Of a stretch of DNA of 64,000 nucleotides, positions 242 through 3,953 are shown one piece after another (positions within the stretch are counted from its first letter, which is position 1; the number at the start of each line of letters is the position of its first letter). The position numbers were made by a program, and so were the translations under genes. Source of the stretch: Bacteroidota bacterium (lineage in GTDB: Bacteria > Bacteroidota > Bacteroidia > UBA8524); NCBI GenBank assembly GCA_016124735.1, contig WGMZ01000009.1, positions 1-64,000 of the forward strand. Direction: 5' to 3'. The notes beneath the pieces are model-generated. The model saw only the letters and a list, made by a program, of their open reading frames with translations, had not been told where the DNA came from and ran no database searches.

Positions 242-829
242 ATGAATCGCCTTCTCCTCATATCAACAACGCTCATCAGCACTTTATCATACAGCCAGCC
301 AGAAGTTGGAACGATTAAAGTAAAAAAGGCGAAAGAGAAAACTGCGTTCGAAAGCTTTATGAGAGAAACTCCCGACACAACACGATTCAGCCTTTTTAGC
401 TGTTTATTGTTTTGCGGTTGTCCTCCCCTGCCTAGTCCGGTTCGCCACACCTGGATTATGACCGGAGCAGGAAATTCAAATGGCTGGTATGGTGAGTTGG
501 GTATAGAGCAAATCATTTTATGGCATTATGTCCATGTCGGAATTTTAGGGAAATACCATCAATACCAAGGGGCCAAACTCCGCACTTATATTCAGGGAGA
601 CATAGACCCCTTAGGTGAAAGACTTGGTTTTAGTGCAGGATTTAGTCACAACTTCAGTCTGAATAATTCCGTAAAAAACACCATGGAACCTTATATTGGA
701 TTCAGATTAGACCGGAGATTTTTAAGTCATTTCCAAATGAATCTGGGCTACGCCTTTTCCTACGGGAAAAAAAATGAAATAAATACGTCGAGCAACGCAT
801 TAAGTATTGGATTGTGGTGCAGACTTTAA
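242..829 (+). CDS. Secreted/outer-membrane protein of unknown function, Cys-rich near the N-terminus
   Basis: A 195-aa protein that I do not recognise. Residues 1-19 form a typical signal peptide ending in Tyr-Ser-Gln, so export is likely. Around residues 53-60 there is an unusual cluster of four cysteines (CLLFCGC) followed by a Pro-rich stretch. The second half alternates aromatic and polar residues (GYAFSYG, SIGLWCRL at the C-terminus), which resembles small Bacteroidota outer-membrane beta-barrels. The gene is followed after 14 bp by the ECF sigma factor gene, so it may belong to the same transcript. The tandem repeat lies about 100 bp upstream. Export is fairly sure; the function is unknown. 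Confidence 0.6.
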   Translation: MNRLLLISTTLISTLSYSQPEVGTIKVKKAKEKTAFESFMRETPDTTRFSLFSCLLFCGCPPLPSPVRHTWIMTGAGNSNGWYGELGIEQIILWHYVHVGILGKYHQYQGAKLRTYIQGDIDPLGERLGFSAGFSHNFSLNNSVKNTMEPYIGFRLDRRFLSHFQMNLGYAFSYGKKNEINTSSNALSIGLWCRL

Positions 830-843
830 AGACAACAAAACCA

Positions 844-1416
844 ATGAATACCGACTCAAAATATCATGTAGATACAGCGCGGGTTAGCGAAGAGTCCGAA
901 ATAATCCTTCGGGCCAAATCCAATCCGGCGGCTTTCGAGCCACTCTACAACAGATATTTTGAAGGGATTTATCGCTTTGTATACCAGCGGATGGATGATA
1001 TTGATACTGCAAAAGATATCACCCAAATGGCATTTATCAAAGCCTTGGAAAAGTTGAATACCTATGAAGACCGCGGGCTTCCCTTCAGTTCCTGGCTGTA
1101 CCGAATTGCCTATAACGAACTGACCCAGCACTTCAGAAACAACAGTAAAAATCGTTGTTTGAATATCGATGATGCCGGATTGGATGAGTTGATGGAAGAA
1201 ATGCAGGAAGACCGATATGAACCCTACCTGGATAAACTGGTGGATGTGTTGAGCCAATTGGAACCGGAAAACGAAGCATTGATTGAAATGCGCTTTTTTG
1301 AGAAACGCAGCTTCAAAGAGATCGCCGAGATTCTGGACCTGACCGAGACCAATGCAAAGGTGCGCTTGTACCGCTTGCTCGACAAAATTAAACTGGTTAT
1401 CACTCGGGTTGCTTAA
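844..1416 (+). CDS. ECF-type RNA polymerase sigma-70 factor
   Basis: A 190-aa extracytoplasmic-function sigma factor that directs core RNA polymerase to a specific promoter set. Region 2 is visible at about residues 30-95 (PLYNRYFEGIYRFVYQRM, then the DITQMAFIKAL helix). Region 4 is at about 135-185, with the helix-turn-helix around FKEIAEILDLTETNAKVRLYR split by normal loop residues. The ATG at 844 is chosen; a GTG at 814 would add ten residues that overlap the upstream gene. The next gene starts 12 bp downstream and encodes a single-pass membrane protein, the usual place for a membrane-bound regulator of the sigma factor. The family is certain; the signal and regulon are unknown. Confidence 0.93.
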   Translation: MNTDSKYHVDTARVSEESEIILRAKSNPAAFEPLYNRYFEGIYRFVYQRMDDIDTAKDITQMAFIKALEKLNTYEDRGLPFSSWLYRIAYNELTQHFRNNSKNRCLNIDDAGLDELMEEMQEDRYEPYLDKLVDVLSQLEPENEALIEMRFFEKRSFKEIAEILDLTETNAKVRLYRLLDKIKLVITRVA

Positions 1417-1428
1417 GAAAGAATTAAA

Positions 1429-3141
1429 ATGAAAACGAACGGGAAATATAGGATGAACAGAAAGCCATTGAGCTCAGAGGAAATCAACCGCATGCAGGAT
1501 TTTAATGCGGTCCTCAAGGGTGCTTCAATGAGCGGGCCTAAAGGAGGCAATGGAGGAGGCGGATTCAGCAATTGGCTGTATATGACAGGGGCTTCCTTAC
1601 TGGTAGTAGTTGGCGTGGCGGCCTGGTTCTTCTATCCTGACACTAAAGAAAAAGCGATATCACGACAGGTAGAGCAAAATATTCCGGAGACGATGCCCAG
1701 AACACAAGAGGACTCCGAAGATCTAGTACGAGCGCCTCTTGTACGTCTTCCGGTAAAAGAATGGGATATTGCCTTTGCATCCTATACTCTGGATGCTCAA
1801 AAAGGTGGATTGATTCTACATCCCGGCGGAACAGAAATCCGAGTACCTGCCTCCTGTCTGATCGATGATAAAGGAAACACCATTCAGGGTCCGGTAGAAT
1901 TCCGCTACCGCGAATTTTTCGACCCTGTGGAAATTGCACTGAGTGGCATCACCATGGAATACGATTCTGCCGGTGTATCGTACTACTTCGAAACCGGCGG
2001 CATGTGTGAGTTGCGGGCCTTCCAGCATGGAACCGAATTGAAGATGAAACCTGAAAAGCCAGTCGAGGTATCGATGCCCGCTAAAATTGATGGCAACTAC
2101 AATCTTTATTATTTAGATGATGAAAGAGGCTGGCAGCCGAAAGGAAACAGCAAGCAGGTTTCTAATGCGACTCGAGATAATATCACCAGCGTGCCGCCTG
2201 TCACGGAAAGTATTAGTGAAGGAGAAGAAAGCATAATTGAACCGCTTACTCCCGAGCTCAAACGTATTCAAACCCAAATTAACCAACTCGAAAGCCAAAA
2301 GCCGAAAGCACCCAGAAAAGCCAATGTAAACCGTCCACGATTCAACCTGGATGTCAAGTTGAATGAATTCCCTGAACTGAGTGATTTCGACAAGATGCAG
2401 TTTGAAATTGCCCCGGAAGACAAGGTATTCACTACCGATTTGTACAAAATAGAATGGAACGACGTGCAATTGAAACGTTATTCCAGCACCCGTTATAAAA
2501 TGGTATTATCTCAGGCCGGAATTGGAGATAGTCCGAGGCGCGTAGTTGAACTCATTGTGGTTCCGGTGATTGACGAAAAAGATTTTGCCGAAGCACAAAA
2601 GAAATACAAGCAGCTTTTAGAAGATTATAATGCCAAACTGGAAGCTAAAAAAGCAGAAGAAGCCCGACTGAAAAAAGAAGCGGAAGTAGCCCGCAATAAA
2701 CAGATGGAGGCCTACCAGCAGCAGTTAAAAAACCAACAAGCCACCGTGTTTACGGAACAGGAGGTAAGGCATGTCTTTTCAATGGATGGATTCGGTATCT
2801 GGAACAATGACAATCCCCGAATCAAACCCAAAAGAATTATTCAGGCGCAGTTTGTCACTCCAAACAAAGAGCCGATTCAGTGCTATAATGCCAAGGTCAT
2901 TTTACCTTCAAAAAGAGCGTTGATTGATATCCATCATGGTGGAAATGGAATTTATGGAATTCACGATGTGGGAGATTCAAAAAGCATTGTGTTGTTCGTG
3001 CTTCCCGATAAACAAATTGCATTCAAACGGGTAAGTGATTTGAACCCTTCGGATGGAGTCATCATCATGCAACCGGATCCACATCGATTCGAATCTGCGA
3101 AAGAAATAAAAGAATATATCTACCGGACCCTCGGTCAGTAG
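1429..3141 (+). CDS. Single-pass membrane protein, putative regulator/partner of the ECF sigma factor
   Basis: A 570-aa protein. A short cytoplasmic N-terminus (about residues 1-45, with a Gly-rich GGNGGGG stretch) is followed by one hydrophobic segment at about 48-68, and a large outside domain follows. Residues 120-230 resemble a beta-rich domain seen in Bacteroidota membrane proteins (FRYREFFDPVEIALSGI; FETGGMCELRAF). A Lys/Glu/Ala-rich coiled coil lies at about 385-440. The topology and the position 12 bp behind an ECF sigma gene suggest an anti-sigma role. However, I see no zinc-binding HxxxCxxC anti-sigma motif, so the role is inferred from context only. A strong terminator follows at 3167. 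Confidence 0.7.
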   Translation: MKTNGKYRMNRKPLSSEEINRMQDFNAVLKGASMSGPKGGNGGGGFSNWLYMTGASLLVVVGVAAWFFYPDTKEKAISRQVEQNIPETMPRTQEDSEDLVRAPLVRLPVKEWDIAFASYTLDAQKGGLILHPGGTEIRVPASCLIDDKGNTIQGPVEFRYREFFDPVEIALSGITMEYDSAGVSYYFETGGMCELRAFQHGTELKMKPEKPVEVSMPAKIDGNYNLYYLDDERGWQPKGNSKQVSNATRDNITSVPPVTESISEGEESIIEPLTPELKRIQTQINQLESQKPKAPRKANVNRPRFNLDVKLNEFPELSDFDKMQFEIAPEDKVFTTDLYKIEWNDVQLKRYSSTRYKMVLSQAGIGDSPRRVVELIVVPVIDEKDFAEAQKKYKQLLEDYNAKLEAKKAEEARLKKEAEVARNKQMEAYQQQLKNQQATVFTEQEVRHVFSMDGFGIWNNDNPRIKPKRIIQAQFVTPNKEPIQCYNAKVILPSKRALIDIHHGGNGIYGIHDVGDSKSIVLFVLPDKQIAFKRVSDLNPSDGVIIMQPDPHRFESAKEIKEYIYRTLGQ

Positions 3142-3166
3142 ATTGGTTTGGTTCATACACGGTAAG

Positions 3167-3196
3167 CCCCTGTCTTGCAAGGACAGGGGTTTTTTT
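3167..3196 (+). terminator. Rho-independent terminator after the ECF sigma locus
   Basis: A perfect 8-bp GC-rich stem (CCCCTGTC at 3167-3174 pairing with GACAGGGG at 3182-3189) closes a 7-nt loop and is followed directly by seven T. It ends the 242-3141 transcription unit. Confidence 0.9.
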
Positions 3197-3239: not shown

Positions 3240-3953
3240 ATGTTATCACCCGATTGGCTTACAGAACCGATAATCGACTACGAATACAAAAAGTATATTT
3301 TGTTGGCTTACCTTCAAAATGTTCATAAAGATTTTCAAAATACCCGTCTGTATCCGCATTTGTCAGACTTGGTACAACACTACCGCAGCCTGCTCGATTT
3401 TGAAAAAACTATCCGACTGATGCAGGCCGAAGAAAAAGGAGAACTAAAACATATCGACTTTCAAAATCTGAAGCTGGTATATGAAAAAACTCTGCTCAAT
3501 GATGGATTGATGCAGGAATTGGATGATATCGTTCGGTTTTCCATCCCTCATTTTAAATACCACCTCAAGGAAGGCAAAGAAATATACGAAGGTGTTGAAC
3601 ACCAGCTGAGTTTGTCTCCTATTGGCATCGTTCCCTTGTATACCGATGAGGGATACATGCTATTAAAAAGCAATACCAATTACGAAACGCATATCTATCA
3701 GTATAAGATGACTATGTTTCAAATGGCGGGCGAACCTTACCGGGGTATCCATACCCATTTCATCAGTACACAGAAAAACAGCCTCATCCATACGTTTGAA
3801 GCCATCAAGAGACAATTGGTGAAGGAAAATAAGGATTTGCCCAATCCGGCTACCTACCTCATTGAATCAGAAAAGCAGTATCCCGTAAACGAAACACTGC
3901 TTCCCATCGCCAGGCGAATGCTGGTCAGATATCTTTATAAATCAGAATCCTGA
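3240..3953 (+). CDS. Conserved Bacteroidota protein of unknown function
   Basis: A 237-aa soluble, largely helical protein without signal peptide or membrane segment. It resembles a conserved Bacteroidota hypothetical whose N-terminus reads close to SPDWLTEPIIDYEYKKYILL. The middle (about 115-190) contains a beta-rich stretch around LSPIGIVPLYTDEGYML, and the end is a helical YLIESEKQYPVNETLLPIARR. It stands alone between the terminator at 3167 and the convergent secG operon, whose last gene ends 7 bp after its stop. No catalytic motif is obvious to me and I give no function. Confidence 0.75.
   Translation: MLSPDWLTEPIIDYEYKKYILLAYLQNVHKDFQNTRLYPHLSDLVQHYRSLLDFEKTIRLMQAEEKGELKHIDFQNLKLVYEKTLLNDGLMQELDDIVRFSIPHFKYHLKEGKEIYEGVEHQLSLSPIGIVPLYTDEGYMLLKSNTNYETHIYQYKMTMFQMAGEPYRGIHTHFISTQKNSLIHTFEAIKRQLVKENKDLPNPATYLIESEKQYPVNETLLPIARRMLVRYLYKSES

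Follow-up and report, generated by a model that had tools for sequence, protein, structure and literature searches.

A conserved cytoplasmic segment beside a distinct clade of extracytoplasmic function sigma factors suggests a so far unnamed type of membrane anti-sigma factor in Bacteroidota

The window analysed here comprises 64,000 nucleotides of a Bacteroidota bacterium (assembly GCA_016124735.1; genome 3.1 Mb) and is the start of the 110,794-base contig WGMZ01000009.1. Near its beginning lie three genes in the same orientation, separated by 14 and 12 bp, which encode an exported protein (gene 1), an extracytoplasmic function (ECF) sigma factor and a membrane protein, hereafter the partner (Table 1). 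This partner, a single-pass protein of the inner membrane, very probably represents an undescribed family of anti-sigma factors, and its cytoplasmic residues at about 6–35 are predicted to bind the cognate sigma factor. Computation revealed a distinct clade of sigma factors, a fixed adjacency of sigma factor and partner, a conserved cytoplasmic segment and a predicted closed complex, suggesting a so far unnamed anti-sigma type, the novelty of which is provisional. An earlier note on this DNA had described three adjacent genes with one terminator, and the open reading frames (ORFs) and a hairpin followed by a T-run confirmed this layout.

The sigma factor of the window belongs to a distinct ECF clade. 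Its assignment as an ECF sigma factor, already made in the earlier note, was supported by matches to regions 2 and 4, with Sigma70_r2 (PF04542), Sigma70_r4_2 (PF08281) and PF07638 above the Pfam cut-offs and TIGR02937 above its NCBIfam cut-off; an alternative GTG start of the ORF at 814 would overlap gene 1. When this sigma factor was compared with the ECF sigma factors of 14 genomes, each containing a partner match, the clade members scored at least 124.9 bits and all the others at most 77.3 bits. With a clade profile and a threshold of >150 bits, 72 sigma factors in 119 genomes of the class scored at least 184.7 bits, and the next one scored 125.9 bits. In the FastTree phylogeny, one branch parted 118 clade rows from 13 other ECF sigma factors of the window's own genome (support 78), and row L128 lay on a very long branch. 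The related named loci were all from Bacteroidota, and the linker between the sigma2 and sigma4 domains was conserved across the clade as R-x-V-N-I. On plasmids, one clade sigma factor was found (Bernardetia), the adjoining 'hypothetical protein' of which has the segment, and a search of plasmids with the partner profile gave no match. This plasmid partner (L168:4661–5341, Bernardetia sp. Wsw4-3y2, WP_338790767.1) has a C-terminus that appears TonB_C-like by eye, without a Pfam match.

In the 119 genomes of the class, the cytoplasmic segment was found only beside sigma factors of this clade, and beside most of them. Profile A3, run on whole genomes without preconditioning on a sigma factor, gave 66 matches in 38 of the 119 genomes, at least six of which are rows of the profile itself or copies thereof. 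Because all 66 directly follow a clade sigma factor, the pattern is not due to chance. A segment match thus accompanied 66 of the 72 clade sigma factors and none of the four lower-scoring ones. Among the remaining six, a deviant or ambiguous segment was visible at L049, L149, L150 and L153, L152 lies at a contig edge, and L151 showed none. A profile of 34 residues, built from 12 long partners, matched 72 of the 85 held-out loci at E ≤ 0.001, and relaxing the threshold to E ≤ 1 raised this number to 81 (L041 was omitted from this count and from the covariation analysis). In 100 loci, including three copies (L036 = L055, L042 = L129 and L043 = L134), the same profile gave 95 matches at E ≤ 1, every one directly after a clade sigma factor, and none elsewhere among their 18,471 six-frame segments; L049 (ambiguous bases), L103 and L109 (contig ends) and L128 had no match. 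A further 19 loci, 14 chosen as related profile A3 matches and five as A3 non-matches, yielded 13 matches at E ≤ 1, and no match at E ≤ 1 was found beside the 13 other ECF sigma factors of the own genome. The segment occurred in only two of 198 genomes in a sample of the phylum, compared to 38 of the 119 genomes sampled from the class, and its distribution is thus patchy.

Across the 47 aligned segments, Ile19 was nearly invariant, and Phe25 was among just three invariant columns in the alignment of 51 long partners. The earlier note had described the cytoplasmic part as about 45 Gly-rich residues; in the own genome the part after residue 35 is indeed Gly-rich, though residues 6–35 are strongly conserved across relatives. 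The neighbourhood survey that the note had proposed revealed a conserved pairing of sigma factor and partner. If the partner were instead a co-transcribed target, with adjacency reflecting operon history only, an ectodomain relative in the own genome (L167:2607–4427) lacking the segment and with no sigma factor seen nearby would be in keeping with this. However, the cytoplasmic segment and not the ectodomain is the most constant part, and it was never found away from a sigma factor in the 119 genomes, making a mere target extremely improbable.

No known anti-sigma family accounted for the partner. Neither Pfam nor NCBIfam gave a family for the partner above cut-off, no anti-sigma family was listed for the 47 segments in either database, and known anti-sigma families were absent from the profile scan among the matches listed (25 of 44 families). 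Searching the sequences of the PDB with the segment and partner profiles returned chance-level matches only. The profile search that the earlier note had named as a possible refutation thus gave no known anti-sigma family among the matches listed. Class I (ASDI/zinc-type) anti-sigma domains often carry the motif Hx3Cx2C. As the note had stated, no such zinc motif is present in the partner: HxxxCxxC is absent, residues 1–50 contain neither His nor Cys, and Cys occurs only at positions 143, 193 and 485. With a cytoplasmic part of fewer than 50 residues that lacks these amino acids, the partner does not fall into class I. According to one article (PMC7406223), the class I domain averages about 100 residues and is encoded near only about 6% of Bacteroidetes ECF sigma factors.

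The earlier note had also proposed a structure prediction of the N-terminal part of the partner with the sigma factor. The complex was modelled with AlphaFold as one cognate chain, in which the natural stop was read as Gly within a five-residue bridge, from an input of 22 rows with the segment and 31 rows with the sigma factor only. The model was confident, with a predicted TM score (pTM) of 0.83 and a mean predicted local distance difference test score (pLDDT) of 86.9, and the sigma factor was closed. Partner residues 6–35 reached a pLDDT of 90, 97 and 94 per block of ten, compared to 48–78 in a model of the partner alone (48, 78, 74 and 51 for residues 1–10, 11–20, 21–30 and 31–40), despite more rows for the latter. 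The strands in the model were sigma residues 104–108, chain residues 201–204 (partner 6–9) and a single bridge residue at 49; because there were only two strands, partner residues 6–9 are considered to pair with the linker. In a structure comparison, the model matched anti-sigma-bound SigW (5wuq_A; Z 13.7, 152 residues aligned, 4.5 Å) and anti-sigma-bound CnrH (4cxf_A; Z 12.3, 144 residues aligned, 3.9 Å), each over both sigma domains, and its superposition on RNA polymerase-bound sigmaE (6jbq_F) was 26 Å. The segment is thus predicted to form a strand on the sigma2–sigma4 linker and two helices, with the sigma factor closed as in SigW–RsiW and CnrH–CnrY.

Several points weigh against an anti-sigma function of the partner. 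The one-chain design favours contact, and only the cognate sigma factor and segment were modelled. Free ECF sigma factors can be compact, as in 7qh5, titled as a sigma factor alone, which matched the model with Z 12.2 over 137 residues at 3.2 Å. The strand pairing is deduced from the strand list and not from a contact map or the predicted aligned error. Covariation between the two proteins, analysed in 93 sigma–segment pairs, was weak and confounded by lineage, the top pairs appearing lineage-driven; the pair N107–R8, within the predicted strand pair, ranked 15th and was not used as support. Furthermore, four clade sigma factors have segments that the profile misses, with Phe25 replaced in three and ambiguous bases in one, and L151 is without a visible partner. 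The segment might tether the sigma factor at the membrane or assist it as a co-activator, similar to the N-terminus of FecR, instead of inhibiting it. Strict pairing fits any cognate binding, and according to PMC7406223 ECF activity depends on 59 residues at the N-terminus of FecR. However, the predicted sigma factor is closed as in the inhibitory complexes SigW–RsiW and CnrH–CnrY, and the partners of 55–60 residues resemble minimal devices for membrane sequestration, so that we regard tethering or co-activation as rather unlikely and favour an anti-sigma function.

Among described systems, CnrY–CnrH of Cupriavidus metallidurans (class II; 4CXF) may be the nearest in principle, with a two-helix segment embracing sigma2 and sigma4. 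Both membrane proteins have a very short cytoplasmic segment, and in the one-chain model two helices would hold the sigma domains closed, as in CnrY–CnrH. They differ in the additional beta strand that the model places on the linker, CnrY being described as two helices in PMC4598750, and in their outer domains. For RsbN–BldN (6DXO), the likeness is on the sigma side: 6dxo_A was the best PDB match of the clade sigma factors (E 1e-25, sigma2 part), and BldN was the best NCBIfam family of the window sigma factor, though at 102 bits compared to an equivalog cut-off of 206 bits. Neither CnrY nor RsbN was among the 10 PDB sequences that the segment profile listed at E ≤ 10, a comparison made via this list alone.

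The Dma/Reo systems of the same phylum (PMC13088901 and PMC13114119) likewise place a sigma factor beside a membrane protein with a short N-terminal binding region, followed by a membrane helix and a long outer part, and pairs resembling them occur in the own genome. Six own-genome ECF sigma factors (L159, L160, L162, L163, L164 and L166) have such Dma-like partners, with a conserved Trp, a membrane helix and a long outer part. The partner studied here differs in its segment, in reaching sizes as small as 55–60 residues and in lacking an outer-membrane barrel. Comparing the segment profile with the six Dma-like N-termini in hhalign, these being recognised by layout and not as known Dma sequences, gave a probability of 2.1% over seven columns. 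No barrel family was found for the window partner in Pfam, and its modelled outer part consists of separate beta domains and a coiled coil, largely at pLDDT above 90, without a C-terminal barrel; of the four Dma-like partners scanned, two matched OMP_b-brl_2, in one case below the curated cut-off. In addition, seven other own-genome sigma factors, six of which have the Dma-like partners, grouped apart from the clade (FastTree support 99). A partner of the Dma/Reo type is thus very unlikely.

The large outer domain and coiled coil of a single-pass protein, as described in the earlier note, were recovered as a membrane helix and a long helix within a series of beta domains (Table 1). In the partner-alone model (51 rows), the ectodomain was mostly above a pLDDT of 90 and the membrane region below 50. 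Near-invariant residues of the ectodomain in long partners were R161, E162, G173–M176 and S189–M192. With VIA-align, outer domain 1 matched ankyrin–spectrin entries (ZU5; Z 9.6, 9.4, 9.1 and 9.1 over 122–126 residues at 2.9–3.4 Å), UNC5b (Z 7.0) and GAIN-containing chains (Z 8.5–9.3), these assignments being partly taken from entry titles; the top row was a flagellar doublet chain (Z 9.8) not assigned to ZU5 or GAIN. Foldseek gave nothing for the partner model at E ≤ 0.001, and Pfam ZU5 was not above cut-off in 10 genomes, so the likeness of outer domain 1 to the ZU5 domains of ankyrin and UNC5 and to GAIN domains is a structural resemblance only. The ORF at L167:2607–4427 (606 residues) has the same ectodomain motif (SGVPMKYDSAG), and its neighbours resemble recJ and an lptB-type ATPase gene by eye.

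The outer part varied greatly while the segment remained constant. Partner length ranged from 55 to 714 residues, the longest being L123, and the open frames at the 66 segment matches comprised 20 of up to 140, six of 140–400 and 40 of over 400 residues. The smallest partners, of 55–60 residues (L083, L097, L101, L105, L127 and L145), consist of the segment and one membrane helix. On the sigma tree, the size class changed at least 12 times. The partner at L126 carries TonB_C as its outer domain (E 8e-13), and those at L121, L086 and L078 were near the GldM C-terminal domain, though below cut-off. That one Bacteroidota clade carries a common tail on interchangeable outer sensors, ZU5/GAIN-like, TonB_C and perhaps GldM-C-like, down to sensorless proteins of 55 residues, is a proposal that we hold with about even confidence. 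Just downstream of the small partners at L083, L097 and L145 lies a gene resembling that of dihydroorotate dehydrogenase (by eye). Clade sigma factors with short partners at L045, L137, L136, L046 and L052 adjoin a gene that is gldM-like at its N-terminus (by eye). The product of gldM belongs to the motor of type IX secretion and gliding, and SigP of Porphyromonas gingivalis is linked to the control of this secretion system. These clade sigma factors may be linked to the control of type IX secretion, as for SigP; the available part of the literature on SigP does not mention an anti-sigma factor.

Gene 1 is not a conserved part of the system. The N-terminus of its product resembles a signal peptide by eye, and no known domain was found. 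In contrast to the four clustered cysteines described in the earlier note, three are clustered (54, 58 and 60) and one is distant (193). Among 40 kin genomes, homologues of gene 1 were found only in the own genome (G000) and in G004 (28% identity, same position), in which the cysteine cluster is not kept, and G001 of the same genus has no counterpart at the corresponding place. A cell-surface system of three parts, in which the exported Cys protein would act as sensor or target, would be consistent with the co-directional position of gene 1, 14 bp upstream of the sigma gene, with the corresponding position of its homologue in G004, and with the other exported proteins encoded upstream in some relatives. 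Given its absence in G001, the unconserved cysteines and the fact that, for most of 98 listed sigma ORFs, no motif-bearing exported gene was seen upstream, such a system is unlikely. Of the unusual cell-surface signalling type considered in the earlier note, the absence of a recognisable anti-sigma domain and the conserved sigma–partner neighbourhood stood, whereas the role of the exported protein did not stand in the form proposed.

The motif referred to resembles GTIKVKK, which in gene 1 comes after the putative signal peptide. Such a mature start was found in nine signal-peptide-like ORFs of 337 scanned, six of which lie directly upstream of a clade sigma factor; the pattern had been drawn up with examples already in view, and the gene of the window is not among these ORFs. 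The genes upstream of clade sigma factors encoded TonB_C at L056, L072, L115 and L079 and CHU_C at L038, and gave nothing at L092 and L055. The upstream TonB_C genes, along with the TonB_C-fused partner at L126, weakly suggest that the partner can work together with exported proteins of its operon. At L060, L061, L064, L069, L075, L081, L117 and L119, a gene resembling that of di-haem cytochrome c peroxidase (by eye) lies directly upstream of the sigma gene, and CCP_MauG was found by Pfam in both upstream genes scanned (L060 and L117).

Two observations concern the flanks of the locus. The very start of the contig (1–136) is a perfect tandem array of 15.1 copies of the 9-base unit CTAAAGTCT, which is possibly the reason for the assembly break there. 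Past the terminator, an ORF of 237 residues on the same strand (3240–3953) matched no family in Pfam or NCBIfam.

Table 1. Positions of genes, predicted protein parts and motifs of the locus in the window
Feature	Position	Strand	Remarks
Gene 1: exported protein, 195 aa	242..829	+	No known domain; lineage-restricted
GTIKVKK of gene 1, directly following the putative signal peptide	308..328	+	Similar motif in other exported proteins upstream of clade sigma factors
ECF sigma factor, member of the distinct clade	844..1416	+	190 aa from ATG
Sigma2–sigma4 linker, residues 104–108, predicted beta strand pairing with the partner segment	1153..1167	+	
Partner: membrane protein of 570 aa, proposed as anti-sigma factor	1429..3141	+	
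Predicted sigma-binding cytoplasmic segment, partner residues 6–35	1444..1533	+	Predicted strand 6–9, helices 16–20 and 25–34
Phe25 codon	1501..1503	+	Invariant in 47/47 aligned segments
Single membrane helix, about residues 49–69	1573..1635	+	Position judged by eye and from the hydropathy of relatives
Outer domain 1, residues ~116–245	1774..2163	+	ZU5 and GAIN domains among the best structural matches; YREF, SGIPM and SAGM motif, most conserved in the ectodomain
Second beta domain, residues 323–381	2395..2571	+	Model
Long helix (coiled coil), residues 383–443	2575..2757	+	Model
C-terminal beta domain, residues 446–546	2764..3066	+	Model
Intrinsic terminator-like hairpin, then T-run	3164..3192	+	

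From these results we infer the following scenario, in which inhibition, the direction of regulation, the signal, the release step and the targets are all proposals. The partner strand would add to the strand in the sigma2–sigma4 linker, and two short helices around the invariant Phe25 would clamp sigma2 and sigma4, leaving the sigma factor unable to join RNA polymerase. The outer part, with its ZU5/GAIN-like domain, second beta domain, coiled coil and C-terminal beta domain, may sense the state of the envelope. An envelope signal could act on this outer part or, alternatively, be received by a companion protein or by the membrane helix, and the sigma factor would most likely be released by proteolysis or a conformational change. 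Since the forms of 55–60 residues have no outer sensor, their signal would have to come by way of the membrane helix or of a different protein.

If this scenario is true, a short segment missed by profiles would account for the control of one whole clade of ECF sigma factors, and the segment would provide a sequence signature by which such pairs could be recognised. No link between outer parts such as the ZU5/GAIN-like domain and anti-sigma factors was found in the open-licence literature. The very small putative membrane anti-sigma proteins could serve as test objects for whether and how a protein of 55 residues without an outer domain releases its sigma factor. The outer domains of the longer partners, including the ZU5/GAIN-like one, point to envelope sensing.

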